NCBI GenBank assembly: GCA_903908595.1
Contig: CAIVSN010000060.1
Span: 1 to 34,871 of the forward strand
Reading direction: 5' to 3'
DNA: 34,871 nt
DNA from: an uncultured bacterium
GTDB taxonomy: Bacteria > Patescibacteriota > Gracilibacteria > BD1-5 > UBA2023
Shown here in pieces: positions 3,386 to 29,430 of this stretch. A model generated the notes under the pieces. It worked only from the letters and a program-made list of their open reading frames with translations, was not told where the DNA came from and did no database searches. The position numbers were made by a program, and so were the translations under genes. The first letter of the stretch is position 1, and each line of letters opens with the position of its first letter.

Positions 3386-3431
3386 TCGCCTGACACATCC
3401 CCTTTGTCGCCTATGTCCCTTTTTTTCGCAT

Positions 3432-4974: not shown

Positions 4975-5140
4975 TATACCCAACGGGAATTGGTTTCCCG
5001 GTTTTTCCAGTCACATATTCGGACATCTTTTATTTTTTTCTCCGGTCACTTATTCCCGATAAGCTCCCGAAAGAAGAAAAATAAAACCTGTTCCGAATCT
5101 GTAACCGTAAAATACCGAAAACCAATTCCTGTTGGGTATA
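4975..5140 (+). mobile_element. MITE family A, copy 1 (162 bp, TA duplication)
   Basis: The element runs 4977-5138 and is flanked by TA on both sides. Its ends TACCCAACGGGAATTGG and CCAATTCCTGTTGGGTA begin imperfect inverted repeats of about 45 bp. It has no coding capacity. About nine bases in ten match the copy at 21977-22138 read in reverse. The TA duplication is that of Tc1/mariner-IS630 elements, so it is probably moved by such a transposase encoded elsewhere. Confidence 0.85.
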
Positions 5141-5195
5141 AATCGGATATTTGACACCCCGTATTTCCTTTATGGAATGAATTCAGGTCAATGAA

Positions 5196-9200: not shown

Positions 9201-10762
9201 CGGTGTTTTTCGTAATGCAGCCCCTTGTCCTTGGAAACGACCGAATCGTCCGATTTCCCGTGCACCGAGAAAAACCGGTCATAATGGTCCGGATCGATCA
9301 GGAGGCTCAGGGTCTCGAACAGGAATTGGTAGTTGTACAATTCGCTTTTCAGGAAGCCGACCGCGTTGTTGCGTTCCTTTTCGGGGACGATGAACGAATA
9401 GTCCCCGAGCTTGCTGATGTGTTTGAGCAGCGTTTCCGCCCCGGCCACGACGTTGAACTTGGTGAGGTCCCCCCGCTCGAACGCGTGGATGAAAAATCCC
9501 AGGATCGCCGTCCGCAGCGCTTCGAAATCCGCCTTCATATGCTGGTCTTTGTCGAGGAGCATCCGCACGAAATCCGAAGAAATCTCGTCGTTTTCGTAGC
9601 GTTTCCCAAGTTCGAGCGATTCTTCGACCTTCCGGATTTTCCAGGTACGGTCGGAGAGCATTCCGGCGGTCTTCGCCCGGAGGGTAAGCCCGCGCAAGAA
9701 CCTTCGGGAAGTCTCGGCATCGCCCCCGACCAGGTGCTGCCCAAAATCCGCCTGCCGGCCGATGGCCCGGAAACTCGTCTCGAACAGTTCCGCGAGGTCG
9801 TTCGCCATTTGCTGGGCTCCCCGGTTCAAATCTCCGGTATTTTTGTCGACCGAGAGTTTGGAAACCGCGTCCACTACCCCGCTCTCCGAGAGATGGAACG
9901 CGTCGACGCGAAGTTTCCACGCGATTTCCTTCGGCGGATGCTCCCCGTTCCCGATGGCGGAATGGCCGATCGGATGGATGGTGGAAAAATACGACCTCGC
10001 GAGCGCCACCCGCAGGTCCGTCCCAAAAAACACTTCCGCCCCTCCCGACCCGCCTTCCCCGGCGAGCACCGTGAGGCTCGGCTTCCCGAGCGAGGCGACC
10101 GCGGTAATGAGCTCCGACATGCAGGCGGCCTGGTGCGTGGCGTTGGCCCGCGCTCCGGAATCGGCTCCGGGAGTGTCCACCCAATAGACCACGCGGTCGA
10201 ATTCCTCCCCTTTGAGCGCCTCGATGACGCTCCGGTGGTCTTCGGTCGTGGCCCGTCCGCCGGAATGGTTCTTGTCGTGTCCGACGACGAGGTACGTGAC
10301 TTTGTCAGCGGCGGTTTTGCCGACGGTGATTTTTCCGATGCAGATGGATCCGGCATGGATCATTTTCCCGTGAAAAGCCTCCTCGATGATGGATTCGGTC
10401 GTCCACTTCTTCTGGACGTCGTTCTGGTAGGTAACGAATTCGTTGTAGTATACGTCCAGAAAATTCGACCCGTACCGCTCCGGATACCCTTCGATTTCCC
10501 TGATGCGGTCCGCGATGGCCGTGCGGTCCAAGAAGAGCGGCGAATCCAGTCCGAGGTTCGGGATTTTGCCGAGTTCGAGGATGGAAGCGATTCGCCAGGC
10601 GTATGCGGCGCCCGTCGGATGCCGGAGCGCGTTGGCCGCGAGGAGCGGGACAGCACGGTCTCGGGTGTATTCGGCAAGGGCTCCGGCGCGGTAGGAACGG
10701 ATGTCCGAACGGGCGTTCGGAACGGAAGCGAACGGGTTGGAAAATGGGGGCAGCTTTGGCAT
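6194..10762 (-). CDS. Fused acyl-CoA carboxylase (AccA-AccD-AccC in one chain)
   Basis: A single 1522-residue protein holds most of the acetyl-CoA carboxylase machinery, which makes malonyl-CoA from acetyl-CoA, bicarbonate and ATP. Residues 130-310 are an AccA-like carboxyltransferase with VDTPGADSG and GEGGSGGAE. Residues 310-680 are a long linker with no family I recognise. Residues 685-855 are AccD-like (GGAIDGAAAANIVR, GVCTGGTIASF). Residues 905-1375 are biotin carboxylase with the ATP-grasp loop GGGGKGIR at 1084 and EMNTRIQVEHTITE at 1207. The last 120 residues end like a biotinyl fold (IGRGQAVFVI), but no AMKM-type biotinylation motif occurs anywhere in the chain. The biotinylated lysine is therefore unclear, or the carrier is a separate protein. 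No TGA occurs among its many glycines. The substrate could be another acyl-CoA. Confidence 0.85.
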   Translation of the reverse strand: MPKLPPFSNPFASVPNARSDIRSYRAGALAEYTRDRAVPLLAANALRHPTGAAYAWRIASILELGKIPNLGLDSPLFLDRTAIADRIREIEGYPERYGSNFLDVYYNEFVTYQNDVQKKWTTESIIEEAFHGKMIHAGSICIGKITVGKTAADKVTYLVVGHDKNHSGGRATTEDHRSVIEALKGEEFDRVVYWVDTPGADSGARANATHQAACMSELITAVASLGKPSLTVLAGEGGSGGAEVFFGTDLRVALARSYFSTIHPIGHSAIGNGEHPPKEIAWKLRVDAFHLSESGVVDAVSKLSVDKNTGDLNRGAQQMANDLAELFETSFRAIGRQADFGQHLVGGDAETSRRFLRGLTLRAKTAGMLSDRTWKIRKVEESLELGKRYENDEISSDFVRMLLDKDQHMKADFEALRTAILGFFIHAFERGDLTKFNVVAGAETLLKHISKLGDYSFIVPEKERNNAVGFLKSELYNYQFLFETLSLLIDPDHYDRFFSVHGKSDDSVVSKDKGLHYEKHRIDIFLRLIFDASAPRYVYMDYAAWKQNRFQWLRSMLDTRLDELAKLTKEFKNAHYSLPDTIVPLALLLLEKFCEASIGDEYLPNLLSSEALHIDFHQKSQYELIRYYEQVRTAIFRKVGSAELERRFFESFEPAYPNFKRSRITVLQDADKLEKRPNSAVNSGFGRMKDVEGLFGVVMLDFSIVGGAIDGAAAANIVRLIDQSAERKIPVIMFLQSAGMFVDAGPESVSSMPAINFAIARYFEKTKGLPQCRIFSVPFGVCTGGTIASFAQAPGVIVLPFGLSDIPFAGRIVTPEQVPLEFSIADLQVGKGVIRDVVRNPFLPAEQATEIYDTLRQSGLPDIVEPTLTLQEYLRKILHAEIPAEAETFLSVERVAKDKNALFRKFGRVAVLNRGVIANKAMQAMKKLGIDYRMMFTDADKNLPYVTDATEHGKGLWINDYMMNAHAIIRSIKDSGCDAVYLGYGFYSERDDFIALCETHGIVVIGPTSENVELMGDKIKARTTFKDVLKNMDIPNKHAFSPAMGSDDILGNDGIVQDEDIAVRVAEQIGFPVMIKAVYGGGGKGIRKIYSVEELRNSFALMSEEALVNFGNSSMYLEKALENQRHIEVQVFSDIFGKCVPLGVRDCTTQRKRQKFIEETGDLGVPVALTQELQSLCASVARAIGYVGAGTFEFLYDPESQKFTFMEMNTRIQVEHTITERLVQEAYDAKINLVELQFILASGQSHRIMDDAEKLQKNLEKHGGHAMEIRICAEDPTRNFTGKEMAAITSWSMALPRPLKKITRFETFLTRTGKGKNHTSKYDSMIGQLIVSGKNRAETIQNAIAALTALQIEGIPTNKEIALRILKSADFQEFGLRIDTLDKKPAQYFEGLTPFTGKVEYISAIKEDIVILAPGELVIRTNQATKVSRAPEAGMTVEGEIMLDCDGKLASRIFELVLAKNNTQITPEMLRGETFYLKNGSGESVPFEPDTRYAVTRSLVTPNQQIGRGQAVFVIRPTDEMV

Positions 10763-10801
10763 GGTCGTAAGGGGGGATTATTTGTGAGAGACATCATTCT
10801 T

Positions 10802-10920
10802 GGAACCCCTGAAAAACGATGAAATTCGAAGTCGGTTTCGCTCACCGTTGGGTATATAGTCATATACGTTGAGCGGAGGGCGGAGAAATCGACAAGAAAA
10901 TCGCGTTTTTCGGGGGTTCC
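10802..10920. repeat. Family B inverted-repeat element, complete copy
   Basis: The element begins GGAACCCCTGAAAAACG and ends CGTTTTTCGGGGGTTCC, so its ends are near-perfect inverted repeats. The interior holds the family core GATGAAATTCGAAGTC and a CCGTTGGGTATA stretch like the end of MITE family A. It lies upstream of the carboxylase gene and has no coding content. With the next element it fills most of the gap between 10763 and 11230. Confidence 0.75.
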
Positions 10921-11029
10921 GTTTCGAGGCTTCGATTCGTTTTCATAGTAAATAATAACCATGCTATGTCAATGGATAAAACGTGGGAAATCGGGTTCCG
11001 GGCGGGCGCTTTGCCGGGGAATTTTTCCC

Positions 11030-11230: not shown

Positions 11231-11911
11231 ATGAACATCGGGAATGCCATCGTGAAATATATCCGGGAAGCCGAAGTGTCCGGCATGGAAGACCGGATTG
11301 CTTTGAAAACGGCACTCCTCGGAACGATGGTCGGCCGGTACCGCCTCGTCCGCGACAGCGACCGGGTCGTCCGGGAAATGATCCGGGACCGGGTAGCCGG
11401 CATTCTCCTGCTCGAACGGACGGGCCGGGTATTTCTCCCCATTCTCCGGGCGCTCTACCGGAAGCACGGGGTTGCCTTCCCCCTCTGGAGGTCATTCGAC
11501 CCCGGACCGAACCCGTTCGGCCACCCGCTCGACCGGAGCCGGGAATTGAAAAGAATCCAAGCGGCATTCGAAGGCATCGGGAACGTCGGGGTCTTCGACG
11601 AATACATGGTCTCGGGAATCCGTATCAAAAATACCGTGACCCATCTCGCGAAATCCCTCGGCCGCCCGGTTCGCGGCTACGTCCTCCAGCACAAGAAAGG
11701 CGCGGAAAATCCCGAGGTCGAAATGGAGATTTTTTCCGCGGGACACGAGCACGAGGCCGACTACGTCGAGATCCGGAACGAGATGACGGAACGGATATTC
11801 TTGCCCGACGAACCGATGCGGTTCCGGAACGGGAGGGTGTCGATTCCCGCGTATCGGAGATTGGTGAAAACGATCGTGAGGGAAGTGGGAGGGTTTGAGG
11901 GGGAGGATTAG
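11231..11911 (+). CDS. Phosphoribosyltransferase-like protein
   Basis: This 226-residue protein ends in TAG and has no in-frame TGA. Residues 119-134, VGVFDEYMVSGIRIKN, have the form of the PRPP-binding loop of type I phosphoribosyltransferases: hydrophobic strand, acidic pair, then SG with a small loop. Before it, GRVFLPILRALYRKHG at 65-80 resembles the early strand-loop-helix that binds pyrophosphate in that fold. The second acidic residue and the threonines of the canonical loop differ, so activity is uncertain and the substrate unknown. The gene starts 35 bp after a foldback element and converges on the protease gene. It could instead be a PRTase-fold regulator. Confidence 0.5.
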   Translation: MNIGNAIVKYIREAEVSGMEDRIALKTALLGTMVGRYRLVRDSDRVVREMIRDRVAGILLLERTGRVFLPILRALYRKHGVAFPLWRSFDPGPNPFGHPLDRSRELKRIQAAFEGIGNVGVFDEYMVSGIRIKNTVTHLAKSLGRPVRGYVLQHKKGAENPEVEMEIFSAGHEHEADYVEIRNEMTERIFLPDEPMRFRNGRVSIPAYRRLVKTIVREVGGFEGED

Positions 11912-12004
11912 GACCTCGGCAAAACGCAAACTCCTTGTCAATTTTTCCGCTCCTCGCTACGGTGCTCGAAATTGACTTCGGATTTCATCGTTTTTCCAAG
12001 GTCC
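11911..12004. repeat. Family B inverted-repeat element between convergent genes
   Basis: The ends GGACCTCGGCAAAACG and CGTTTTTCCAAGGTCC are inverted repeats with two mismatches. The interior carries the core GACTTCGGATTTCATCG and CTCGCTACGGTGCTCGAAAT, also present in the tandem repeat at 1-206. It starts at the last base of one stop codon and ends 7 bp before the other. It could act as a bidirectional terminator. Confidence 0.7.
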
Positions 12005-12011
12005 TACGAAT

Positions 12012-12650
12012 CTACCGGTATCCGAACATGCTGAGGAAAAAATCACTCAGGAATTCTATCGCGGGTCGGATCGGGAGGATTTTCCATTGGAATTGGGATT
12101 CCAAAATGAGTATCACGATAAGCGCCACGGTCCCGTACCGGTAAATCTTCGCGTAATCCGGATGGTCCATATAGCTGCTCAGGAAAATGTGCGAGCCGTC
12201 GAGCGGCGGAATGGGCAGCATGTTGAAGACGAAGAGCCCCCAGTTCACGAGGATGCCATAGTACAGCATTTCTATGAAAAACCTGTATTGGACGCCGGTC
12301 GCCCGCGACACGTTCGCCATGACCAGGGCGAAAATCCCGGACAAAACGATGGCCAGGAACGCGTTGGCAAAGGGTCCGGCCATCGCGATCTTGATGGCGT
12401 CGGAATGCTTCTTGAGCCGGCGCCGGTCGAATTCCACCGGCTTCGCCCATCCGAATCCCGCGAGCAGGATGAACGCGAACCCGAGCGGGTCGATGTGCTT
12501 GAGCGGATTGAGCGATACCCGGCCCATGTCCTTGGCGGTCGAGTCCCCGAGGAGGTAGGAGGCGTACGCGTGGCAGAATTCGTGGAAGGTCAGTCCGACG
12601 ATGAGGGCCGGGAGGGTTTGGAGGATGGTGACGAGGGAGAGGTTGGACAT
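12012..12650 (-). CDS. Site-2 protease family metallopeptidase (M50)
   Basis: This 212-residue membrane protein belongs to the small, PDZ-free branch of the M50 family, which cleaves transmembrane segments inside the membrane. The zinc motif HEFCH lies at 23-27 in the first membrane helix. The third ligand motif NMLPIPPLDG is at 143-152, with Asp151 as the expected ligand. NPLKHIDPLG at 48-57 and GWAKPV at 67-72 are also typical. About five or six membrane segments are visible. Its substrate cannot be told from context: it is convergent with the PRTase-like gene and upstream of nothing. The stop is TAG and no TGA codons are used. Confidence 0.9.
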   Translation of the reverse strand: MSNLSLVTILQTLPALIVGLTFHEFCHAYASYLLGDSTAKDMGRVSLNPLKHIDPLGFAFILLAGFGWAKPVEFDRRRLKKHSDAIKIAMAGPFANAFLAIVLSGIFALVMANVSRATGVQYRFFIEMLYYGILVNWGLFVFNMLPIPPLDGSHIFLSSYMDHPDYAKIYRYGTVALIVILILESQFQWKILPIRPAIEFLSDFFLSMFGYR

Positions 12651-12837: not shown

Positions 12838-15504
12838 TTATGATCCAATTTCAAGCGAGAAAAACTCTCCACCCTGAATTTCCCCGAGTATTTTCTCTTC
12901 CATGGCATGCAGGAGTCACTCGGAATTTGGTACCGCATGTCCAATCCCCTCCCAGGTACCGGAAACTTCAGAAGTTCCCACAAGAATGGCGCCAAGTCGA
13001 AGCTTGGGAAATTCTTTCTGAAGCGCTTTCCAATGGTCCTTGACTTCCGGAGTCCCCGTATCTCCATCGGTAATTTCGAAAACGCACTCGATGAGGTTTC
13101 CAGAGTCAAGAGCGGGACCCACGAGGCCCTTATCGGTCTCAAGATCGGCGCGGATAGCCCCCCAGACTTCCGCATCGCAGGTTGAAACATCAGCGGCATC
13201 GAGTTCCGCAATAGACGTAATGAGATTGGAAACGAAGATATTTTTATCGACAAAAGTATGTCACAATGAATTTCCCGTGGCCGTAAGCGAACTCGAGAAC
13301 TTTTTGAGTCTTTTCGCGTTTCATTCTCCTCCAAATTTCCAAATCTCCGTATCCGCAAAAAATGATTCATCGCCCTGAAGTCCAAGCTTCTCGTTGACCA
13401 TGTCCGTAAGCCGTTCGAGTGATTTTGAGAGAATGACCGAAAATAGGACGCATTGTTCTATCTTCCCGTCACTCATGCTTCTGGAGTTATCGAGAATCAG
13501 TCGAACTCGGAGAATATTGGGACGGAGGATAAACTTCGTTTCCAGTTGCTCTCGAAGGTATATCCAGAGTTCTTCGGGATTGGCTCCGGAGAGGATATCC
13601 GAAATCCGATCGACTGCCCTGTCGATATCGAGCTCATCCGATTTCTGCACATGCTCGAATATCTTTTCCTGCTGCTCGGCAATCATGGAAATGATTCGAT
13701 CTTCCCAGATTTTCGCAAGTCTCTCGATATAGGGCTTTGCCTCTTGAAAAACCGCATCATATTGAGCAAGCAGGTGGGCCACTTGATCCTCGGAAAAATG
13801 CTTTCCTTCTTTTTCAAGAAGCTTTTTCATGGCATCATTACGCTCATTTGCCATAATTTTCGCGATATCCTCCCGTGTTCTATTGGCTACCTTTTTCGCC
13901 TCCCGGGCAGAAGCATTTTTTTCTTGTTCAGCCTTGTCCTCATTCTTGAGGGACTCGAGTATTTTTTTGATTATCTCCTTGTGAGCTTCGAGATCGGGAG
14001 TTTTTTGTGCGCCTGACTTTGCCATGTTATCTCAAGCGTTTTCCGTATCGCTTTCTCCGTCTTCGCCCGTCTCTTTTGGAGGATTATTTGCATCCTTGGG
14101 CTCTCCCTTCGCCTTTCGTTCCCCTCATTCGCCTTCTTGATCATCCGTATCGGATGCTTCGTCCTCTTCTCGTTCCCCCTCTCCTTCTCCCGTATTTCCC
14201 GCTTCCCATCAGCCGCCCCCACCTTCTCCTTCCCCATATGCCTCCGGTGGAACCTCGGGAACCGTGATCTTCCCATCTTTCAAAATCTGCAAGAGAATAA
14301 GCCCCAGGTATATTGGGTCCAAAAAAGTTCTCATGATATCGATCCTATCGGCCTTTGCGATAGAGGTGACACGTTTTCCATCCCGAAAGACCGTTTTCTG
14401 AAACCGCGTAAGCATTTCTGTCGGCGTTTTGGTAGCTAGGGGGTTAAATTCCTTTGGGAGGATCCGCTTGCGATTCTCCTTCATAAAATCGAAAAGTGAG
14501 ACCAGAAAAGCATATTGTTCAGCATCGAATACGCTTTTTGCCGGTAAGAGTTTCTCGGCAATTTCTTTTTCCAATTCCCCAATGCTCGCGATAACGCTCT
14601 GTCCAAGAATTTTTTCCACTCTTTCATCGCGTGCTATCTCCTGGTCTCCTATCATATGGGATCTGAGGAGCGAATACGAAAACTGCTCGGGAAACCGATG
14701 CTTGGCGTAATCGATCCGATCTCAAGCGCCATCCTGTAATTCATGCGTTCCCGTGCCTTTCTTAACCGATACGTATTTCTGGCTCTCTGGATCCATGAGG
14801 TAATCGCCGGCACTCGATTCTTTGTATGAAGCAAATAACTGGGTCGCGTACAATTCACGGGGAAATTTTTTATAAGAATTATCGGTTCCAAAAATGGTTT
14901 TTGCGCTCACCATATCATTTACGATAGTGTCATCCACGGCATTGTGGAGACGATGGAGATAGTATCCCGTCATAAACGAAAAATCCTTGTTGACTTCGTG
15001 TTTTTTCCCAAAATACGAAGCGTATGCTCGGGCTATTCTTTCACGCTCTTTCGAGGTCGGATTTCGGATCATATCCAAATAATGAGAGCCTTCATGAAAC
15101 CCCGAAAACAAGAGCCTCTTAAGATAAAAAGCATTCTCGGGGTCGTCGATATGATGCTCCACTTCATGGATATCGAGCCCGATCCGCATTTGAAAATCAT
15201 TCTTTGCATTCCCCTGCTCGAACCAGAACCCCGAGGCTGGCACAAACTCCACCGAACTGTCCTGAAAAAGTTCCCGCAACTGCCCCATGAGACTGAACCG
15301 GTCCTTTTCATTCTCCGAGATATAGAGTCCTGTTTTTACCACCCGCTCCAGATTCGACTCGACAAAAGCCTTCTTGAGCTTGTATTTTTTCGCAAGCGCG
15401 GTAACTTCCGGAGCGTATTTCTTCTTCTCTCCCGGATTGACGGCTGAATCGGAAAGCTCGGGAGCGTGGTTTTGGATAGAGAATGACATGGCCTGTTTGA
15501 TCAT
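12838..15504 (-). CDS. HExxH metallopeptidase-like and VWA domain protein, MoxR partner
   Basis: Seven TGA codons (residues 261, 432, 460, 491, 728, 748, 863) read as Gly join several fragments into one 888-residue protein ending in TAA. Residues 100-260 contain FHEGSHYLDM, an HExxH zinc-peptidase motif at 137-141, preceded by a second HEVEH at 113-117. Residues 430-500 are an acidic Gly/Glu-rich linker. Residues 500-660 are charged and helical. The von Willebrand A domain follows with the MIDAS motif LILDNSRSMS at 676 and a later strand ending ITDGDTG. Peptidase-like plus C-terminal VWA is the layout of the DUF2201/CobT-like partners of MoxR ATPases, and such an ATPase is encoded upstream. 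VWA proteins of this sort present substrates to the ATPase. The start at 15504 lies 17 bp from a MITE. Confidence 0.8.
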
Positions 15505-15520
15505 GGGAGTTATTTGATGG

Positions 15521-15686
15521 CATACCTAAGCGAATTTGGTTTTCGGTATTTTGTGGCGATAGCTTCGGAATGGATATTATTTTTCTTTTTTTGGGAGTTT
15601 GTCGGCAATATGTGACCGAAGAAAAAAATAAAAGATATCCGAATACGTGACTGGAAAAACCGGGAAACCAATTCCCGTTGGGTATA
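15521..15686 (-). mobile_element. MITE family A, copy 2, in the leader of the VWA gene
   Basis: The right end CCAATTCCCGTTGGGTATA and the interior closely match the other full copies. The left end (CATACCTAAGCGAATTTGG) is decayed. It fills most of the gap between the second ankyrin gene and the VWA gene, ending 17 bp before the VWA start codon, so the VWA message should carry its hairpin. Confidence 0.8.
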
Positions 15687-15776
15687 TAGAGAAATTCTGA
15701 GAGTCGATTGGATTTTGACCCGAGTTATTCATAAGGAAGAAAGGTAAGTTGAAGTTGAGATTTAAAACGCTATTTT

Positions 15777-16415
15777 TTACTCTCGCATTTTGGCTTCGAT
15801 GAGAGCTTTCATTTCACTATCGTCAGAATAATAGTCCAAAAGTTTCTCTCATTGACCGTATGCTCATAGATCGGTTCGAGGATCGGCGAGGAGGAGTTTT
15901 ACTATTTCATTTGATTTGGACATGGCCCGTGTAAGCGGAGTTCATAATCCTCAGGCCTGGTAATTAATATTAATCTCCGGATGAGCAAGAAGAAGTTTGG
16001 TGGTTTCAATATTGCCATTTCGCGCGGCATGACATATTGCCGTAAGTCGTGAATAATCTTCAGCATTCACAAGAATTTCTGGCCGTGCCAGGAGGAGCTC
16101 CACTAATCGCACCTCATTCATATTCGTAGCCATGGTGAGAGCCGTATGATTATCATGTCCTCGTGCATTGACATCACCGGTCGTATAAATCAGTCCCCCG
16201 AAATTATGCATGCAATCATTTTTTGAAACAAAACAAGCAATGGCGATCTGCTCTAACTTCATTCGATCTTCGAGTAGCTCGTTTTTTTGTACATCGAGAT
16301 ATTGAATAGCGTTGGAAATTTTTCCATTGATATCTCCAATAACTCACTGGATCGACGCAATCCGCGCATCTCACATGGGCGTAGCCTTTCAAGGAATCTG
16401 ATTTGTATTTTTCAT
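15777..16415 (-). CDS. Ankyrin-repeat protein 2 of the MoxR-VWA operon
   Basis: The protein has 212 residues with seven TGA-coded glycines, and ends in TAA. Residues 1-65 form a mostly helical N-domain related to that of the larger neighbour: both run from an IQ-containing helix to IAIAC or IAVAC, an FGxLI motif and TGxxN. Ankyrin repeats follow, with LLLARPEILVN, LLLAHPEININ and LLLADPRTDL ending successive units. The C-terminus MKALIEAKMRE matches the neighbour's IKALIEEAMRK. The two genes are therefore tandem paralogues, but these repeats have diverged much more. The start at 16415 is 31 bp from the previous stop; ATG at 16376 is an alternative. It probably binds a protein partner of the ATPase complex. 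Confidence 0.75.
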
Positions 16416-16446
16416 GGAAGATTGTAAATGAATATAAATATTCGTT

Positions 16447-17361
16447 CTAAAACTCGATTCCCCGTTTTCTCATCGCTTCTTCGATGAGAGCTTTGATTTC
16501 TGGGGCTTTTGTTTGCTCAAGAGCTTTTTTTCATTGATCGTAAGCCCTAAGATCGAGGCGAGGATCGGCGAGAAGGAGTTGCGTGATTTCTGTTTCTCCA
16601 CGGAGGGATGCCCCTATAAGAGCGGTGAATCCACTTGAACTCTTCTCGTTCACGAGGATTTCTGGGCGAGCGAGAAGGAGTTTGGCGATTTCTGGGTTAT
16701 TATTGAAGGATGCCCACATAAGAGTGGTGTTTTCCTCTGAGTCCTTCTCGTTCACGAGGATTTCTGGGCGAGCGAGCAGGAGTTTGGCGATTTCCGTGTG
16801 ACCATTGAGGGATGCCAATAATAGAGCTGTGGTCCCCCCTGAGTCCTTCTCGTTCACGAGGATTTCTGGGCGAGCGAGCAGGAGTTTGGCGATTTCTGCG
16901 TTATTATTGAAGGATGCCCACATAAGAGCGGTGTTTTCCCCCGAGTCCTTCTCGTTCGCGAGGATTTCTGGGCGAGCGAGAAGGAGTTTGGCGATTTCCG
17001 TGTGACCATTGAGGGATGCCCACATAAGAGCGGTGTTTTTCCCTGAGTCCTTCTCGTTTATATTTCCCGTACTTCGAATGAGCGAGCCGAAAGATATGAG
17101 ATATTCATCTCCTGATTCTTCACAAGCAACGGCTATTTCTTCTGTTTTTCGCTGGTTTTCTCTCTCGTCCATTCTTTTCTTTTCCTCAGCCAAAAACGCC
17201 TTCTTTCACCTCTCCATTTCCTCAATGGCATCGTCAATATTTCAAACGGTCGTTTTGATGATTCGTTGTATCGATTCAACATGTGGGTTTTGAGAATCAC
17301 TCAACTTCCCCTCTTCTGGGGTGCTTGGAATGCGGGATGGAAGCTGAACGGTTTTCACCAT
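16447..17361 (-). CDS. Ankyrin-repeat protein 1 of the MoxR-VWA operon
   Basis: The protein has 304 residues with TGA-coded Gly at residues 40, 52 and 277, and ends in TAG. The first 95 residues are a helical, highly charged region (EEMERGKKAFLAEEKKR). At least five 34-residue ankyrin repeats follow, several nearly identical, built on TALMWASLNGHTEIAKLLLA and RPEILVNEKDSG. Successive units differ mainly at the N-G-H-T versus N-N-N-A/P surface positions. Such uniform units suggest recent duplication or gene conversion. The start codon at 17361 lies 2 bp after the ATPase stop, so the two are almost certainly cotranslated. Ankyrin repeats bind proteins, so adaptor or substrate roles fit best. 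There is no signal peptide. Confidence 0.8.
16570..17070. repeat. 102-bp tandem coding repeats (ankyrin units)
   Basis: About five tandem units of 102 bp inside the ankyrin gene share long blocks such as TTCTGGGCGAGCGAGAAGGA and GTCCTTCTCGTTCACGAGGA. Identity is high at DNA as well as protein level, so unit number could change by slippage or recombination. Confidence 0.75.
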
Positions 17362-17363
17362 AT

Positions 17364-19772
17364 TTACGAAAGCTTACCGGAAATAGCTTCCTGAATAGAG
17401 GTAAGGGTGGTCATGATTTTATCTTCTCCTTGAATATCCTCTTGGTTCGAGAGCGTCACGATGTGTTCTCCGATAGTATCGAGTATGGTTTCCATGGCGG
17501 GGACATGTTCTTGAAAAGGCCCTTCGAGATACTCGGATACTTGAGCGAAACCAGACCGAATCTGTTCGAGCAGGTCGATGATCCGGCTAAATTCTGCCAC
17601 TGATTTTGGACGAAGCTTGGTAATCTGCCCTATAACCGTCCCTATCTGTTCTCTGATATAGCCAATCCGAGACTCATAATCCTTGAGAAAGCCATTATTC
17701 ACATCGACATTGGTTTTTGCGTAGGCCTCATAATCTATCTCTGGCGATGCTCCAGAGAGGAGCTTAGCGAGAGCGAGATCAGAGATAAAGCGTTTCTTTG
17801 GAATGAATTCATTTTTGAGCTTCCAAATACCGCTCGCAGTTCAGGTGAATTCTATTTTCTCGTATTCTTCGAGATTTTTGCGGGATACGAGTCGTCCGAT
17901 ATCGAGGGTATTTCTGGCATTTTGATCACGGGAAAGTTCCATGGCCTTTGGCCATCCCGGCGACTGGAAAAATCCTGCTTGCTGAGCGAGAAAATAGATC
18001 TCGAATTGTTCTTTTTTATCAACTACCCCACTGATAAAATGAAAATAGAGGCTATAGCTCAGGTCCTGTGAAAATCCGCTCTTTTTCCAAAATGGGAGGA
18101 TATGTTCAAATATCTCTCGCGGAGAGATCGTGTGTTCTTTTATATTGGTTGGGAGCTCGCTTCAAGAGACATCTTGCAATGGCGACTTGAGATTTATTTT
18201 CTGAAAACGGGTCTGGATCTCTCGTGCGAGACGTGCGAGATTATGGAGCTCATGCATGCCTTGTGGTATATCCTCACCTTCTTGGCTTGGAAGGAGGAGT
18301 CCGAGAGGAGAATCCATCATGCTCACGAGCATGGTGGCAAAAAGCTGGTTCTGGTCGAGAAGTTTTTCACTCGTATCGCCTTTTTTAAGAATGGCATCCC
18401 ATGAATCCTCTTTCTCCTGTGGCAGGTAATCGTAGTTGATCATGCGGATACGACTGAGGGTCGCGATATCGAATTTGCTTCGTCCTTTTGCATATTGATC
18501 CGTTGGATTTCCCGTAAGTATCCAACAAAATCATTTCTTGATAGCAATGATGTCTCCATTGATACGTACCTCTTCGCCCGGACGTGCAGTCAAGTAGCTG
18601 TGGAGCGCGAGCCAAACCGCTGGTTTCAGGGCATTGGCTTCGTCGACGATGAACGGTTTTCCATCACGCATGGCTTCCGCCATACGACCGAGAACAAATT
18701 TTGTGGTTACGGGACTCTCATATATGGCACGAACCGCTTCGCGACACTGTTCTATTTTTTCTTTTTTCTCGCTCTCGCTCGAGGTTCCGCGTTCGACAAA
18801 ATTCCGGGCAATCTCATTTTCCAACTCGACCCTGAGGTGTGGATTGGTCGATATCTCCGTCACGAGTCAGGAATCGATTTTTCGGTCTTTGCCAGCAAGG
18901 GTAACCTGCCTGATACCAGCAGCATGGAGGAAGTTCACAAAACCTTCCAGGTCGGCCGCTTCAAGTTTGTAACGACCCTCAAAATCGCGTTTATCGAGAT
19001 CTTCGCTTCCGGGTATTTCGATTGCTTCAACTCCGAATCGAGTACGCGCCATATGTCGCGCCAGCTCGGTTTTACCCGCTCCGTGAACTCCGATGAGCAT
19101 GACCGGTTGTGGAATATCTCCTTCGAGCGATTCCATGACTTCGTCGATCTTCTCGCGAACATAGGGCGTTTCTATGATCGATCCCCGACGGTAGTTCCGA
19201 TAGAGCGCGTGAATATCATCTATGCTTTTTATCGTATGAGCAAAGAAATCGGATACCTGAAGATCTCTGAGTGATTGCGCAAGATTTGAAAGCTCTTCGT
19301 AATCGCCATCTTCCCGGGCGATATGTTTCGATGCTTCCGTATTCCCCACGATAGAATGCACTTTGTTCGCATTTGTCACGAGGTATGAAGCAATCCGTTT
19401 TTTTGATTCGTCCTGCTCATATCTCCAAGAAAGATCTTCAAAAAGTTCAAAAGCCAAGAGAAGGGCTTTTATTTTCGACTTCGTGAGCTTTTGATTCTCT
19501 GTCCCTTTGCTGAGTCGGTTCCGTATTTGCCGTTGAGTTATAGATTCCAGAGATTTGGCAAGCGCATCCTTTCACCCATGCGCCATTTCTTCGTGGAGTT
19601 TTCTAAAAATAGCAAGAAAAGTTGCATGCAGGGACAAGTCTCCAAAAAGTGCCTTTGAGAGAAGCAGCGGCTCAAAGGCAACGCTTTTAAGAAGAGAACG
19701 AAGTTCTTTTCTTTGATCGTAGTCAGTCAACACTCCTTCGGCAGTAGCGTCAAACTCTTGTTTCATGAGCAT
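17364..19772 (-). CDS. MoxR-type AAA+ ATPase
   Basis: Five TGA codons (residues 67, 302, 414, 537, 644) read as Gly join six fragments into an 802-residue protein ending in TAA. Residues 1-200 are a helical N-domain. Walker A is GVHGAGKT at 228-235, Walker B is FIVDEAN at 374-380, and the sensor-1 strand is WILTGNPTD near 420, with a TGA-coded Gly just before it. Residues 540-650 are an unassigned region. The last 150 residues look coiled coil (YESRIGYIREQIGTVIGQ). MoxR ATPases act as hexameric remodelling machines with VWA-domain partners, and the VWA gene lies in the same operon. At 802 residues it is more than twice the usual MoxR length (about 320). The chosen start lies about 30 bp past a good promoter; Met at 19763 is also possible. 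Confidence 0.85.
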
Positions 19773-19802
19773 AAAGGCATGGCATATGTAATATCTTGCG
19801 TC

Positions 19803-19832
19803 ATCGTATCACTTTCTGCTGATAAAATGCAA
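19803..19832 (-). promoter_or_regulatory. Promoter of the MoxR-ankyrin-VWA operon
   Basis: On the minus strand TTGCAT (19827-19832), 18 bp, TACGAT (19803-19808), with the ATPase start codon about 30 bp further on. It is the only good promoter seen upstream of the four genes. Confidence 0.55.
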
Positions 19833-20022: not shown

Positions 20023-21475
20023 CTATCCCCCTCCCGTCAGCTCTTCCGCCAGCAATTCGCTCTGTTCCAATACCCGGTCGGCTTCGAGCTTGGCGAGATC
20101 CGGCGGATACCCGTACCGCATTAGCACCTTTTTGACTGTCAAACGGAGTTGGGCTTTGACGTCGTCGCGCTTGTCCCAGTCGACCGTGGCGTTTTTGCGG
20201 ATGATATCGACGATCGTATGGATAAGTTCCTTCATCTTGTGATCTTCGAGAAACTGCGTGGACGAATTTTCCGAGAGGATGGAGTAGAAAGCGTACTCTT
20301 CCGGCGTCAGTCCTACTTCTTCGGCCCGCCGGTCTTCCAACCGCATGTCCCGAGCGATCCGGGAGAGCTCTTCGATAATCTGCGCCGTATCCAATTGGTT
20401 GTTATGGTACCGCTTGATAACCGCGCCGAGCATTTCCGAGAATTTCTTTCCCTGCGCGATGTTTTTGCGCTTTCGGACTTTCACTTCCTCGTTCAGGAGC
20501 TTTTTGAGCAGTTCGAAGGCAAGGTTTTTGTGCTCCATGTTTTTCACTTCGAGCAGAAATTCTTCCGAGAGGATTTCCAAGGACGGGGCCCTGATGCCGG
20601 CGGCCTCGAATAGGTCCACCACCCCGTCGCTCGACAGGGCCTCGTCCACGATTTGCCGGATGGCGGTATCCAGTTCGGCGTGGCTTTTTCCGCCGGATGG
20701 CGAGAATTTGGCAATGCGGGCCTTGATGGCCTGGAAAAATGCCACGTGGTCCTTGATCCGCTCCGCCGCCTCGCTCGGCACCGACATGACGAACAGTTTG
20801 GAAAGCGCCGTCACTTCGGCCAAAAACCGGTTTTGCAAATCTTCGCTCCTCAGTATGAAATTCTGGGCCCCGAGCAGGACTTTGAGTTTTTCCCCGGTCT
20901 CCGCGCGGAAATAGGAAAGGTAATCGAACCCGTGGAACATCTGGGCGACGATTTCGAATTTGGTTTTCATCCCGGCGACGACTTCGGCGATATCGACTAC
21001 CGCTTCGCCCCGTCCACCGCTTTCGACGTAGACCGACATGGCCTTGCGCAAATCCTGCCCGATGCCGATATAATCGACGATGAGCCCGCCCGGCTTGTCC
21101 CGGTACACCCGGTTGACCCGGGCAATCGCCTGCATGAGATTGGCGCCTTCCATTTTTTTGTCGACGTACATGGTATGGAGCGGCGGCACGTCGAATCCCG
21201 TGAGCCACATCGACTGGACGATGGCGTCGATCTGGGCATGGCGTTCCTTCGCTTTATCCTTCTGCTCGGGCGTCGCGTCGGGGATTTCGTCGATGGAAGC
21301 GTCTATCTGAGGGAACGCCTCTGAATCCGCCCGGATTTTGACCAGTCGGCTCTCGTAACTAATCGGTACCGTCGCGCCGTCGCGGACCGCCTGGGCGATA
21401 TCGTAGACGTCGATATATTCTCCGAACACGTTCCGGGTAGATGTCCTTCTCGATGGGAGTGCCGGTAAAATGGGG
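20023..21475 (-). pseudogene. hsdR: Type I restriction endonuclease HsdR, C-terminal remnant
   Basis: The open part (20023-21429, 468 codons, TAG stop) is the C-terminal half of HsdR, the ATP-dependent translocase and nuclease subunit of type I restriction systems. It starts at [11 protein letters not shown] inside the second helicase domain and keeps QAIARVNR (helicase motif VI) and the long helical C-domain. Upstream in another frame FTGTPIEKD is still readable to about 21475. A small deletion between EKD and STRNVFGEY caused the frameshift. The N-terminal nuclease and first helicase domains are missing (a full HsdR has about 1000 residues), so it cannot restrict. There are no in-frame TGA codons. 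It is the last gene of a decayed hsd locus. Confidence 0.85.
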
Positions 21476-21623: not shown

Positions 21624-23059
21624 TTATTTCAAGCTCTCCACAAATGCCTTCTCAAGAAACGAAGCGAGGTACATTTCTTTGCTTCAAAAAACAGTGGTAT
21701 GCTGGAATTGAGATCCTTTTCTTATTAAATCTTTGTCGGGATAGTTGTCAAATATCGAATTATAAACCGTACGGTATAGGTCGTTTTCAAAAACAAAGTC
21801 TCGCGTCATTATGGCGTTTATTATAACAAGATCAAAGTCTTGCCAAGCGGGTTTGGTTCCGTCCGCGAAGAGATGAAGCGCGACAATCCCGTTCATTTGG
21901 TTCCACGTTTCGGTTGTAGAGATATCGACGAAATTGCTCCATCGCATGTACCAAGGGGCAAGTTTTGCGCCATGTATACCCAACGGGAATTGGTTTTCGG
22001 TGTTTTACGGTCATAGATTCGGAACAGGTTTCATTTTTCTTCTTTCGGGAACTTATCGGGAATAAGTGACCGAAGAAAAAAATGAAAGATGTCCGGATAT
22101 GTGACTGGAAAAACCGGGAAGCCAATTCCCGTTGGGTATATCTCCCCGTTCACGTCGTCGAGAATATAGTTTCGAATGATCTCTTTGGAGAAAACAGGCG
22201 TCTCCAGTTTTGGAAAGAGTTTTTTGAAGATTTCTTTTGACTCCAGATTTTTCAAGGTAAGCATGTGGATCTTCCGGAGTTGATTTTTCACCATCTCCCT
22301 AGACCCATCCTTGAGAATCGTAGATTTTTGCGAGATTAAAATCCGGGATATTTCGATGATCATTTCCGTATTTTTTTCTCACAGTTCCCATTTGGCCGGA
22401 TCGTTTCAAAATTGGAACAAAACAGAATTCAGGGATGCAAATTGACCAAATTTTTGGGAGGAACGCATAACGTAATCACGATTGTAGCTAATCGCATCCC
22501 ATTCTGAATTTTCCAATGAGTCGACGCTTTTTATGAAGTCTTTCCCGAGAGAAATTTTCTTTGCGGAGTCTGTTTTTGAGGCAATTTTCTCCATCAAAGC
22601 CTGGAATTCCTCCATATTGAACGAACTTGATAATTTTTGTTCGCATTCATCGAAGGCTGGAACGTCAACGGATTCTCAAAAAACGTATCAGTTTTGAATC
22701 GCTCTCGATAATTTTTCCATTTTAACATTCCCAATAAAAAATGGAGTATCATCGTACTTTTTCTTTGCCTCCGTTGCTGCCTGTTTTTCTTCTGGTCCAG
22801 CTCATTTTTCCGCATACGTATTCGGTATGGAGTAGGTACTGCTACAGTAAGTTTTTCCGTCAATTTTCCGCAAAAGTTGACTGCTTGGATTCTAAACTGA
22901 TTCGCAACTTTTCCACTCCTTCCGGAATGCTTCTTCGGGGGCAAGGCTATCCGTCAGTGCCCCTACGATATCCACCACCGAAAAATACCACGTCTCACCA
23001 TGTCACGCTTTCCGGATTTTCGTACTCTCAAAAAGCGCGATGGAAGCATTTTGACTCAT
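21624..23059 (-). pseudogene. Bro-N-like gene with unknown C-terminal region, interrupted by a MITE
   Basis: The first 55 residues, with KIRKA then HGETWYFSVVDIVGALTDS, match the start of Bro-N/antirepressor-type domains. A TAG at 22892-22894 stops this frame, but the same frame then runs on with four or more TGA-coded glycines (for example FFIGNVKMEKL and NYILDDVNGEI) to the MITE at 21977-22138. Without the MITE and one TA copy the text reads NGEIHGAKLAPWYMRWSNF and continues to TAA at 21624. So the element broke one gene of about 420 codons. The early TAG may be a second lesion, or may separate a short gene from a longer one. The C-terminal part is of no family I recognise. Its place between fic and hsdR is usual for accessory genes of type I loci. 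Confidence 0.6.
21975..22140 (-). mobile_element. MITE family A, copy 3 (162 bp, inserted in a gene)
   Basis: The element is 21977-22138 with TA on each side. Removing it and one TA restores the reading frame of the host gene exactly. The ends are TACCCAACGGGAATTGG and the complement, with imperfect inverted repeats of about 45 bp. Its sequence is close to copy 1, so insertion was probably recent. Confidence 0.9.
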
Positions 23060-23182: not shown

Positions 23183-24319
23183 TTACTTCTTTAGGATATC
23201 CAGATACTTCCGAAACGCGAAGATACGATTTCGTTTGTTTCCGGTGATTTCGACAAGGATTCCCAGCGACACGAAATCTCGGATAAGATCATTGGAAGCC
23301 TTTGGGGAAAGTCACGAATCTTCCTGTACGGAGCGGGCGGATACGATGGGGCTCCGAAACAGCGCTTCAAGAAGGAAATGTCCACTTTGGGCTTTCCTGC
23401 CGAGTTTTGGGATTTCGTTTTTCGAGATAGTTTCCCTCAGGGCAATGATTTCCCTCAGTGATTCGATGGCCTCGGTAGCCGTGGATTCGATGGCCTCCAA
23501 GAAAAACATCAGCCACCCTAGCATGTCGTTTTTTTCTCGTACCCAGGTGAGCTTGTCATAATATATCCCCTTGTTTTTCTCGAAAAAATCAGACACGTAC
23601 AGAAGCGGGCGATGGAGGATTCATTGGCTTACGAGATAAAGCGGGATGATAAGCCTTCCGGTTCTCCCGTTTCCGTCAAGAAACGGATGGATTGTTTCGA
23701 ATTCGTAATGCGCGATGGCTATCCGAATGAGATGAGGGATGAAAATATCTTCGTTGTGAAGGAATTTTTCGAGGTCGGACATAAGATCTTCGACATGTTC
23801 ATGACTCGGGGGAATGAAGCTCGCGTCGGCAAGAGTAGCTCCTCCGATCCAATTTTGACTCGTTCGGAATTCTCATGGGCTTTTGTCTTTTCCCCGCACG
23901 TGGGATAGGAGTATTTTGTGAATGGACCGAACCAGGCGATTGGATAGGGGGATATTTTCGAGTTCGGCAATGGCAAAATTCAAGGATTCCCGATACTGGA
24001 TGGTTTCTCTCCAATCATCCCGATGTTCCGGACGAATGTCGAATTCGTTGGAAAAAGCCTCTTCGATATTCGTTTTGGTTCATTCGATGCGGCTCGAAGT
24101 AACCGCTTCTTTCATGACATACGATTGGAGAAATAGATCAATATTCGGAACGTACTTGGAAAACGAATTCAGTTCTCACAGGCGAAAAGAAGCGGATTCG
24201 ACTTTTTTCTGCAACTGGGGATGCGAAAAAGTCCATTGGCGATTGATAGTTTCCGGAAGAAAATACTTGTATTTAAATCCGTTCCTCCAAGTTCCGGCTT
24301 TGAATTTTTCTATTTCCAT
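23183..24319 (-). CDS. fic: Fic family protein (AMPylator-type), class II
   Basis: With five TGA codons (residues 48, 80, 149, 233, 336) read as Gly this is a complete 378-residue Fic protein ending in TAA. Fic proteins transfer AMP or another nucleotide group onto proteins. The catalytic motif [12 protein letters not shown] is intact at 211-222. The N-terminal autoinhibitory motif SSRIEG at 75-80 fits the [ST]xxxE[GN] pattern of class II enzymes, with the Gly coded by [15 protein letters not shown] starts at residue 149, again with a TGA-coded first Gly. The C-terminus is winged-helix-like ([19 protein letters not shown]). It starts 40 bp after hsdM, so it was probably part of the hsd operon and has outlived it. 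Its targets are unknown. Confidence 0.9.
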
Positions 24320-24359: not shown

Positions 24360-25080
24360 TTATTGGTTTAAAGTAAAATAGTCAATTCTATATTTTACTT
24401 TGCGCAGTCTTTCGAAATTCGAAGGTATCGATACTTCGATTTGGAATGCCTGCTCGATTTCAAACCCTATTTTCTTCAACTGTCTCCGGATTTCCTCGTC
24501 CAATTCCTTCTCCCTCGCCATCTGTTCCCCGAGCCTTTTCGTCAGTTCCCCCATCTTTACCTCAAAGGGAATCCCGTCGTCTATCGCGTCAATTATCCCC
24601 ACGTACCATCCCGGAGTCAGCACGAAACCGTGCCTCTCGATGTCCGCGAGACTCGCCGAGTGGCAATATCCCTTCTCGTTTTCATACGCCCCGTACTTCC
24701 GCCAAGAATGGTAGGATTCGGCGATTTTTTTCGTGTCGGCTTCGGATAGGTCGTGGCGTACTCGGCCTCGAGGTCAGGGTGGCTGTCCCGCAAAAACGCC
24801 CCTCCGTAATCCAGCTCAAGAACTGGGAATTGATATTGCGGATGGCGAGGTTCATCTTGGAGAGCTTCCACATGGCCTGATTGCCCTCCTGCCCGTAAAT
24901 GGTGATATTCCGGATGATTCCCCGGTGTTCCGTGACGAATTTTTCGCTCATCACGAACATTCCACCGCTTCCGCGAGCGGGGTCGCACACCCGTCACCGG
25001 TACGGTTCGATCATCTCAAACGGGAGTTTTGGGGGGTTGGTGAGCGGGATATTACGGTTTAGCAGCCTCGAAAAAACAAT
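24360..25080 (-). pseudogene. hsdM: Type I methyltransferase HsdM remnant
   Basis: Recognisable HsdM text lies in three frames. PFEMIEPYRGRVCDPARGSG (its first Gly coded by TGA) is the SAM-binding motif I region, but the usual Cys of DPxCGSGG is Arg. It continues through EKFVTEHRG and KMNLAIRNINSQF. After a frameshift come LDYGGAFLRDSHPDLEAEYA and then, in a third frame, ADTKKIAESYHSWRKYGAYE and the C-terminal GWYVGIIDAIDDGIPFE, ending in TAA. The region with the catalytic NPPF motif and about 130 residues is deleted, as is the first third of the protein. It cannot methylate DNA. No hsdS was found. Confidence 0.85.
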
Positions 25081-25916: not shown

Positions 25917-27611
25917 CTATTTGGTCGTTTTGCAAATAGTCAATGGGTCATCCTGGAGAATGGTAAGCTCGCCATTCGTGTTGCATTTCAATATCGCGCT
26001 CGATTTTCCCGTGTCGTCAAAAATTTTCCTGGTTGCGCCGATGCGTACTCAATCATATCCGAACTGATCGGCAGTGAAGCTTTTTTGGCAACCGTAAACC
26101 CCGTTCGTACTTCCCCAATAAAAAGTAGCCTTGTTGCTTCCGGGACTAATGGCGATGGTGCATTTGCATCCGGTCGCGTCAGGATTCTGTTCGCAAATCT
26201 GCGCCTGGGTCCTCGTGTCGCGTACGGTCCAATCTCCGCGAATTTTCCATTCCCCGTCCAAACAGGCATAGTCTGCGCTTATGTCATAATACGATGGGAT
26301 GCTCGCATAATCTCAATCCTGTTTCGGATGAGCCGTCGTCGTGACTCCGTTATTCGCAGCGGGCAGTTGAAATCTGACGTTCGTGGCGATAATATTGCCC
26401 TGTATTCCAATTCATGCGCCCGATTGTCCTTGCCCGGTAGCCACTCCGGTGACAGGACAACTCCGGTAGGTGGTAATTTTCCTTTCGCATTTGGCGTTTT
26501 CCGTTCTCGATGCCACCCCATCGGATTGGCAGACATATTCCATGAATCAGTCGGCATTGGGATTCGTATTTGGTATCTTTGTCGATTCCCCTATGGCCAT
26601 GGTAGTGCTTTGTATCGTTCCCGCGCAATCCAGTGGTTCGATTTGCCTTCCGTCAGGGTGACGGCTCGACGTTAACGCCCATGTGGGGCTACCGTTTGCG
26701 ATAATGCAGTTTTTCGCGGGAGACACCGCTCCGGTTACGGCTCCGTTTGCCCCTGCGGCGGCTCCGTTTGCGTCTCCGGTTACGGCTCAGTTTGACCCTG
26801 CGGTTGCCGCTCAGTTTGACCCTCCGTTTGACCCTGCGGTTGCGGCTCCGGTGACAACGGCGGTCGTCGCAGGAAGGGTCAGTACCGGACTTTCCGCGAG
26901 CGTTTTGTACGGCAAATTGCTTATGATCGCCTCGTTAGCTCCTCATTTGTTGCACGTAACGGTCAATACGGCCGTTTCTTTTGTCGCCCCGTTCGCAAGG
27001 ATGGGATCTATCAGGATATTCCCGGCCGCGTCCGGCGATTTTCTGTTTTGATTCGTTCCATCGTGGCATTCGCATACCTTGTATCAATATTTCGCCGGCA
27101 TATACATCCTATAAGTATCGTACGTGGTACCATTGATGGTACGCGGGGCCGTTGCGACGAGGGAAAATTCGCTTGCGGGCGGAGTCGACGCATTGCTGGT
27201 CGTCACTCCTACGCCGGCGGCCGGGACCCGGATCGCGTGCACCCTCGGGTAGATGTATTGGAAAATGAACGCGTATTCGTTCCCGTAGGCCGCGCGCATG
27301 TCGTTGTCGAGTTTGTCGACCTTCGCGAGGTAGGCGTCGACGTGGGCCGTGTAGAGGGAGGCGTTCACGGGGTTCCCGCCCTTGTCTACGGCTTTCGTCC
27401 TGACCTTCGCGACGAGCCCGTCGAGGATTCCGCCCCCCTTTCCCGCCGTGAGGCTCGAGAGCTTGGCGTCGGCTGTGGCATCGATGGAAGAATACGGGGT
27501 GGAATGCAGCATCTGGCCGCTTCCGACGGCCATGAAGGCGGCGAGCGCGGTCGCAGAGAACGCGACGAATACCGCGAGATATTGCCCGTAGGCCTTTGGC
27601 AGGGGTTGCAT
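25917..27611 (-). CDS. Surface protein 2: shared N-domain with variable Cys-rich C-terminal region
   Basis: Eight TGA codons read as Gly give one 564-residue protein ending in TAG. The N-terminus (short basic start, membrane segment about 9-31, then a helical domain with [17 protein letters not shown] and [17 protein letters not shown]) is nearly identical to surface protein 3 and clearly related to surface protein 1. After a strand-rich part and an Asn/Gly/Ala/Thr-rich linker (AGSNGGSNGAATAGSNGAVT), the C-terminal 300 residues hold many cysteines (CQSDGVASRTENAKC, CEQNPDATGCKC) and look extracellular and disulfide-bonded. I know no family for that part. The start at 27611 is shared with surface protein 3 and lies about 33 bp downstream of a matching promoter. 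Confidence 0.8.
26735..26860. repeat. Low-complexity linker repeat in surface protein 2
   Basis: Short imperfect tandem units such as GGTTACGGCTCCGTTTG and CTCAGTTTGACCCTGCGGTT encode a Gly/Ala/Asn/Thr-rich linker. Two of its glycines are TGA codons inside the repeated unit. Confidence 0.6.
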
Positions 27612-27643
27612 ATGCGTGAAGTGAGGGATACGATACGCGGGAC

Positions 27644-27672
27644 ATTGTAGGATGGTTTCGTGGGAAAAGCAA
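27644..27672 (-). promoter_or_regulatory. Promoter of surface protein 2
   Basis: On the minus strand TTGCTT (27667-27672), 17 bp, TACAAT (27644-27649). It matches the promoters of surface proteins 1 and 3. Confidence 0.65.
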
Positions 27673-27720
27673 ATGGAAATGGGGGATTCATCGTCCCATT
27701 TCGGCATTTCAAAATCCGGC

Positions 27721-27750
27721 TTGACCTTAAGTACCCCGACCGGATATAAT
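27721..27750 (+). promoter_or_regulatory. Orphan plus-strand promoter
   Basis: TTGACC (27721-27726), 18 bp, TATAAT (27745-27750). It is the copy of the alcohol dehydrogenase promoter at 29431-29460, but here no plus-strand gene follows: it faces the 3' end of surface protein 3. It was probably carried along when the N-domain region duplicated. Confidence 0.55.
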
Positions 27751-27863
27751 GGACTCATAACTTGATTTCACGTGAAAGCCGGGCAGGGATGCCGTTACCC
27801 CGCCTTTTCCATATGCTCAACGTACCGCTCCTTATTGAAAATCCATTCAAGAAGTTCCGTCGG

Positions 27864-29321: not shown

Positions 29322-29352
29322 ATGCGTGAAGTGAGGGATACGATACGGGGAC

Positions 29353-29381
29353 ATTGTAGGACTGTCTTTCGGGAAAAGCAA
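29353..29381 (-). promoter_or_regulatory. Promoter of surface protein 3
   Basis: On the minus strand TTGCTT (29376-29381), 17 bp, TACAAT (29353-29358), about 32 bp before the start codon. It matches the other two family promoters. Confidence 0.65.
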
Positions 29382-29430
29382 ATGGAAATGGGGGGTGTGT
29401 GTCGCCCCATTCGTTTTTTCAAAATCCGAC

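Follow-up and report, generated by a model that had tools for sequence, protein, structure and literature searches.

The closest described relatives of the gene cluster analysed here are the MoxR-vWA ternary conflict systems (Kaur et al. 2020, PMC7159879; for iSTAND2 and TERNS3, PMC8195603), in which a MoxR AAA+ ATPase and a vWA co-chaperone are accompanied by a third, system-defining component such as VMAP, iSTAND, FtsH or a beta-propeller. A MoxR-class ATPase with a vWA partner is also found in the NorQ-NorD, CbbQ-CbbO, RavA-ViaA and CobS-CobT pairs, which act on a fixed enzyme or complex. Predicted metallopeptidase-vWA proteins of the DUF2201/COG3864 type, which we took as a lead only, have an HExxH motif, an NxxxDxxxN-like motif and a C-terminal vWA-like domain, and are often encoded near MoxR. 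We considered a cluster of four genes, for a MoxR ATPase, two ankyrin-repeat proteins (Ank1 and Ank2) and an HExxH-vWA protein, in the contig CAIVSN010000060.1 of assembly GCA_903908595.1, from an uncultured bacterium of the Gracilibacteria (Patescibacteriota; BD1-5; UBA2023). The window is the whole of this 34,871-nt stretch; its genome is called G000, and relatives are labelled by genome handles (G...) and locus handles (L...).

As in the ternary conflict systems, the MoxR and vWA genes are clustered here with a further variable component. None of the described third components was recognised, as the proteins of the window gave no VMAP, iSTAND, FtsH, bpMoxR, propeller or TERNS3 Pfam match at E <= 1. 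In contrast to those systems, the third place is here taken by complete repeat proteins, encoded in tandem and exchangeable in fold, and the N-terminal region of the vWA protein has an HExxH motif. The present system is moreover in the Patescibacteria (the Candidate Phyla Radiation, CPR), which were omitted from the multicellularity statistics for lack of information, and ankyrin and leucine-rich repeats (LRRs) are unmentioned in the same paper (PMC7159879). Unlike the four pairs named above, with which the low-confidence model of the window MoxR (nearest to NorQ, see below) agrees in kind, the locus has no enzyme partner in view and has a predicted protease fused to vWA, together with repeat-protein arrays. 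The vWA protein has no DUF2201 Pfam match at E <= 1. Some ternary conflict systems have sensors diversified by diversity-generating retroelements (DGRs; PMC10907252) or propeller regions, in which they are like some relatives of the present system. Precisely, in the DGR antigen-sensor systems of multicellular bacteria (PMC10907252) MoxR and vWA stand beside a reverse transcriptase with adenine-specific hypermutation, as they do in the related loci of G455 and G698, whereas in the window and its close relatives the variation comes from tandem repeats and duplicated genes. Of the classes described, the MoxR-vWA ternary conflict systems are hence the nearest, and the present cluster departs from them in the type of the third component and in the HExxH region. 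Among the open-access papers searched, none pairs Patescibacteria with MoxR, and the only relevant paper on MoxR, ankyrin or leucine-rich repeats and CPR is the 2021 death-domain paper, where ankyrins and LRRs appear in other contexts; subscription journals and preprints were outside this search, so an earlier description is possible.

We read the cluster as the ankyrin version of a Patescibacteria-wide system of MoxR, HExxH-vWA and interchangeable binders, in which recognition subunits would bring targets to the machine, probably in the cytoplasm and probably for defence, and we give this reading about an even chance. On the minus strand, between positions 12838 and 19832, the order under NCBI table 25 is MoxR, Ank1, Ank2 and HExxH-vWA, with gaps of 2, 31 and 272 bp, respectively (Table 1). 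The first-pass annotation had described four open genes of these sizes (802 aa for MoxR, 888 aa for HExxH-vWA, and two ankyrin genes), the first two of them 2 bp apart and all hidden as fragments by the standard code, and each of these points was reproduced, the standard-code reading of the cluster yielding fragments only. TGA is read as glycine (code 25): the residue that standard-code homologues most often have at TGA positions is Gly, with an enrichment of 4.6-fold for MoxR and 3.6-fold for vWA, while the TGA positions of the vWA gene in the window, taken by themselves, are too few for judgement.

A close vWA homologue was found in 5 of the 353 genomes of the class (G000, G131, G293, G294 and G248). 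The MoxR of G294 is 82% identical to that of the window over 802 residues, and 2 bp downstream from it lies an ankyrin gene whose product is 52% identical to Ank1. In the other three genomes the slot is taken by LRR genes. In G131 the order is MoxR, two LRR genes, vWA, three LRR genes and a frameshifted LRR gene; in G293 eight LRR genes stand between vWA and a MoxR gene truncated by the contig end; in G248 four LRR genes, vWA and two LRR genes follow one another, with MoxR and then an LRR gene on another contig. Intact LRR genes were located by tblastn at 9798-10964 in G131 and at 11259-12470 in G293. The placing of ankyrin genes beside a MoxR-vWA pair, which had been singled out as an unfamiliar layout, is thus repeated in a relative down to the 2-bp junction, and LRR, HEAT-like, propeller-like and WG proteins occupy the slot elsewhere. 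A chance juxtaposition of ankyrin genes in an ankyrin-rich genome could be thought of, as many ankyrin matches are on other contigs of G000. We regard it as very improbable, since it is contradicted by the synteny: the identical junction is in a genome whose Ank_2 matches are confined to the MoxR-ankyrin locus, and other repeat arrays fill the same slot elsewhere. In G294 there is also a second MoxR-vWA pair, divided between contigs, beside which no array was seen. The standard-code MoxR-vWA loci of G132 and G257 are different and were not counted; the vWA-side protein of G132 has a transglutaminase domain.

In the HExxH-vWA protein, the HExxH motif, the NxxxDxxxN motif, the DxSxS motif and the Asp downstream from it (D813) are kept in all 13 aligned sequences, namely the window protein and 12 homologues. 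For this reason both the metal site and the metal ion-dependent adhesion site (MIDAS) are probably working parts, as far as conservation can tell. DxSxS with D813 is the signature of a MIDAS co-chaperone, and Pfam VWA models gave marginal scores in the homologue L104 only. The protein itself passes no Pfam, NCBIfam or PADLOC model, a phmmer search against PDB returned only low-complexity matches to polymerases, and no match was found in phage or plasmid collections, nor any related locus in viral contigs.

The MoxR protein has an AAA_5-type P-loop core (AAA_5 42.1 bits versus a Pfam cut-off of 22). A search of genome contigs for related loci with MoxR gave no match. Its AlphaFold2 model, from 6 sequences, has a predicted local distance difference test score (pLDDT) of 49, too poor for domain arguments, and we used it only for a fold search with the AAA core, in which, with the caveat of a low-confidence model, the best match was NorQ, followed by Mdn1 (midasin) and CbbQ. 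This match can be put down to the credit of an explanation that we consider unlikely, in which the repeat proteins are clients: MoxR-vWA would be a dedicated assembly chaperone, comparable with RavA-ViaA, CbbQO and NorQD, whose task is to fold, assemble or cut the repeat proteins, and these would then serve another function. The well-studied MoxR-vWA pairs do remodel dedicated partners (PMC7159879), and the conserved N-termini of the arrays would serve as a recognised tag.

The exchange of partners in more distant loci speaks against clients of this kind. Profile searches reach standard-code homologues in other Patescibacteria, and MoxR and vWA are together in every distant locus that is not cut by a contig end. 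The partners are LRR proteins of another kind (G437, G325), HEAT-like repeats (G543), propeller-like proteins (G577, G847, G848, G992, G477), WG repeats (G348, G477), WD40 together with an unknown family (G391) and, in one family (G851, G825, G872), a possible beta-helix protein. The labels LRR in G437, WG and WD40 come from Pfam, and those of the G325 LRR, HEAT-like, propeller-like and beta-helix-like proteins from reading the sequences. Internally repetitive genes make up 16 of the 26 genes between MoxR and vWA versus 5 of 104 in the background, with p = 6e-10 in the diagonal-score test, a value that is optimistic because array paralogues are not independent observations; about 11 loci have at least one internally repetitive neighbour. 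In a tree built from 25 vWA proteins, the type of partner switches at least 6 times, the details being unsure because several branches, the window's among them, are long. The fold of the partner hence changes fully (ankyrin, LRR, HEAT-like, propeller-like, lectin-type) while the pair persists.

The same comparisons bear on a housekeeping role, in which the pair would serve metal insertion or enzyme maturation (CobS-CobT, NorQ-NorD or CoxD-CoxE type) and the repeat proteins would be incidental neighbours. Bare pairs do occur in some genomes, and the AAA core, in the low-confidence model, resembles that of NorQ, but no metalloenzyme partner was noticed nearby in the loci read, with close homologues in 5 of the class's 353 genomes its distribution is much too scattered for a housekeeping pair, and repeat proteins are enriched beside the pair. 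We judge this role improbable.

At the homologous loci of G698 and G455 a DGR is present, with a reverse transcriptase in both and a bAvd protein in G698, and the mismatches between template repeat (TR) and variable repeat (VR) fall only at template A (7/7 and 21/21, respectively). Such targeting is easier to reconcile with a protein whose binding targets change than with a fixed client. In the locus of G698 (L108) the VR, at 3386-3498, makes up the 3' end of MoxR itself, with the TR at 3744-3856, so that it is the MoxR C-terminus that is hypermutated. A reverse transcriptase is present in G481 as well, whose contig is short and yielded no template pair. In the window, neither a reverse transcriptase nor a TR/VR pair was seen, and its close relatives likewise showed no reverse transcriptase. 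The DGR-type reverse transcriptase genes have (GA)n tracts 22, 11 and 15 units long (L108 4715-4758, L110 7889-7910 and L111 4712-4741, respectively), and the reading frame of that of L108 is broken at the tract; a phase-variable switching of retroelement mutagenesis is possible.

Both ankyrin proteins are well above the Ank_2 cut-off of 27.3 bits (Ank1 106.8, Ank2 59.2), and the N-terminus of Ank2, which is followed by ankyrin repeats, can be aligned with that of Ank1. Within the repeats, positions 3, 5, 10, 13 and 14 are the most variable. These are mostly known binding positions of ankyrins, and the comparison set consisted of the positions randomised in designed ankyrins. The excess of variability at this set has p = 0.0017, and it is compatible with diversified binding and also with lack of constraint. 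In each of the 6 measured arrays, conservation is higher at the N-terminus than in the remainder (amino acid identity 69 versus 32%, 63 versus 26%, 92 versus 71%, 60 versus 48%, 53 versus 38% and 48 versus 34%). Two stronger claims were dropped. Positive selection on the array repeats is not claimed because the ratio of nonsynonymous to synonymous variation (pN/pS) is below 1, and a single N-terminal docking domain common to ankyrin and LRR proteins was not supported by profile comparison except between G293 and G131. Other contigs of G000 (C44, C103, C186 and C71; L093, L095, L096 and L097) carry clusters of large ankyrin proteins with an N-terminus that is WGR-like by eye; the ankyrin clusters of contigs 44, 98, 103, 186 and 71 were set aside, with no MoxR or vWA gene adjoining in the stretches read.

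The ankyrin proteins had earlier been proposed as adaptors, secreted effectors or sensors. Neither Ank1 and Ank2 nor the LRR proteins tested have a hydrophobic N-terminal or transmembrane stretch, which disfavours secreted effectors relative to adaptors or sensors. The same result weakens the idea that an epibiont or predator sends its ankyrin and LRR proteins, prepared by MoxR-vWA, into another cell or presents them to it. In intracellular bacteria, ankyrin proteins frequently act as effectors, which counts for this idea. Gracilibacteria and their relatives are also thought to depend on other cells (e.g. Vampirococcus, PMC8080830). However, no secretion genes came to notice beside the loci that were read, and the matches to NCBIfam effector-ankyrin models are far below the cut-offs and reflect generic repeats, so that we see little likelihood in a host interaction.

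The cluster had also been presented as one operon with a single promoter upstream. The promoter was not recovered: the scan gave no promoter-like site directly upstream from MoxR, and the 8 promoter-like sites in the region compare with 8.1 expected by chance. As for the operon, its shared ancestry stands, since the genes of relatives are tightly packed, with gaps mostly of 4-22 bp, and the cluster is therefore probably ancestral, while in this genome a repeat divides Ank2 from vWA. The 272-bp gap is in fact largely filled by one copy of an interspersed, roughly 168-bp element, which, judging from the packing in relatives, was probably inserted later and which contains one terminator-like and one promoter-like match. 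There are at least 40 near-full copies in G000, 84-89% identical (40 of 292 first-look candidates were scored, and the true number may be higher), three of them in the window, at 4975-5143, 15520-15689 and 21972-22141.

In the mechanism that we propose for the MoxR, HExxH-vWA and interchangeable-binder system, the repeat domain of Ank1 or Ank2 would bind the target, and the N-terminal part, conserved within each array, would dock onto the MoxR-vWA machine. If it works like the known MoxR-vWA pairs (PMC7159879), the vWA domain would hold a peptide of the adaptor or target through its MIDAS, and the MoxR ring would remodel it using ATP. The HExxH site would then cleave the remodelled peptide or might cut a self-effector. 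Several points weigh against this reading. No peptidase family model recognises the vWA protein, and the structure predictions are poor not only for MoxR but also for the vWA protein (pLDDT 39, from 5 sequences, again too poor for domain arguments). Four loci have no array in view (the second system of G294, G420, G705 and G786), and the dependence among array paralogues touches the repeat enrichment. Ankyrins free of constraint would show equal variability at binding positions, and pN/pS is below 1 in all arrays. The N-terminal regions of G293 and G131 are homologous, and those of the ankyrin, G248 LRR and propeller versions have no detectable homology with these or with one another. Ank2 and vWA may be on separate transcripts in this genome because of the element lying between them. 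Finally, what is observed are the genes, their conserved order, the invariant motifs, the pairing of conserved N-termini with variable C-termini and the replacement of the binding module, in some relatives by a retroelement-mutated one, whereas the docking, the proteolysis and a part played against phages or other invaders are what we infer from the sequences.

Directly upstream from MoxR the window contains remains of a type I restriction system (HsdR and methyltransferase pieces) and a Fic gene, which suggest an old defence island, and because of this restriction-system debris a defence setting is mildly favoured. G000 measures 2.41 Mb, about twice its family members; the GC content is 52% for the window, 42-47% for the operon and 57-58% for its neighbours, as against about 35% for the locus of G131. 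The size and the GC contrasts hint at gene transfer or a mixed bin. Further along, 25917-27758 and 27864-29400 encode paralogous proteins with a common N-terminus and divergent C-termini, their DNA being 86% identical over 300 nt.

Table 1. Features of the cluster and of its surroundings in the window
Feature	Position	Strand	Remarks
MoxR-class AAA+ ATPase	17364..19772	-	first cluster gene; open under table 25; 802 aa from ATG, 822 aa from upstream TTG
P-loop GVHGAGKT of MoxR	19068..19091	-	G228, G231, G233, K234 and T235 invariant in three homologues
Ank1	16447..17361	-	304 aa; N-terminus of about 100 aa (helical by eye), then about five ankyrin repeats
Ank1 102-nt tandem units	16568..17077	-	code for similar ankyrin repeats; 76-86% DNA identity to reference unit pair
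Ank2	15777..16415	-	212 aa from best ATG; a GTG start would overlap Ank1
Interspersed repeat element, MITE-like	15520..15689	-	about 168 bp, inverted ends; between Ank2 and vWA gene
HExxH + vWA protein	12838..15504	-	888 aa; predicted zinc metallopeptidase fused to MIDAS-type vWA domain; homologues in other Patescibacteria
HExxH motif (H137 E138 G S H141)	15082..15096	-	H137, E138 and H141 invariant in 13 homologues
NxxxDxxxN motif (N188, D192, N196)	14917..14943	-	candidate third metal ligand region; invariant in 13 homologues
MIDAS motif DxSxS (D672, S674, S676) of vWA domain	13477..13491	-	invariant in 13 homologues, with D813
HsdR C-terminal part	20023-21429		upstream of MoxR
Fic gene	23183-24319		upstream of MoxR
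N6-methyltransferase pieces (type I)	24360-25019		upstream of MoxR

Taken more widely, and tentatively, the system may be an immune-like repertoire of the Patescibacteria, in which one ATP-driven vWA metalloprotease chassis would be combined with exchangeable recognition proteins (ankyrin, LRR, HEAT-like, propeller-like or hypermutated lectin-type) with conserved N-termini and variable faces, in a logic like that of NLR and antibody repertoires; we find this possible, at somewhat less than an even chance. The Patescibacteria are numerous and barely studied, and the genes are hard to spot under a non-standard code. The targets of CPR retroelements are mostly without recognisable conserved domains, according to a 2021 survey (PMC8144416), and the system offers a possible role for some of them. 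Whether MoxR-vWA machines have interchangeable target-recognition adaptors is a question that can now be tested. If they do, a single chassis with several repeat folds, in conserved-plus-variable arrays of which some are hypermutated, would amount to a bacterial recognition repertoire.
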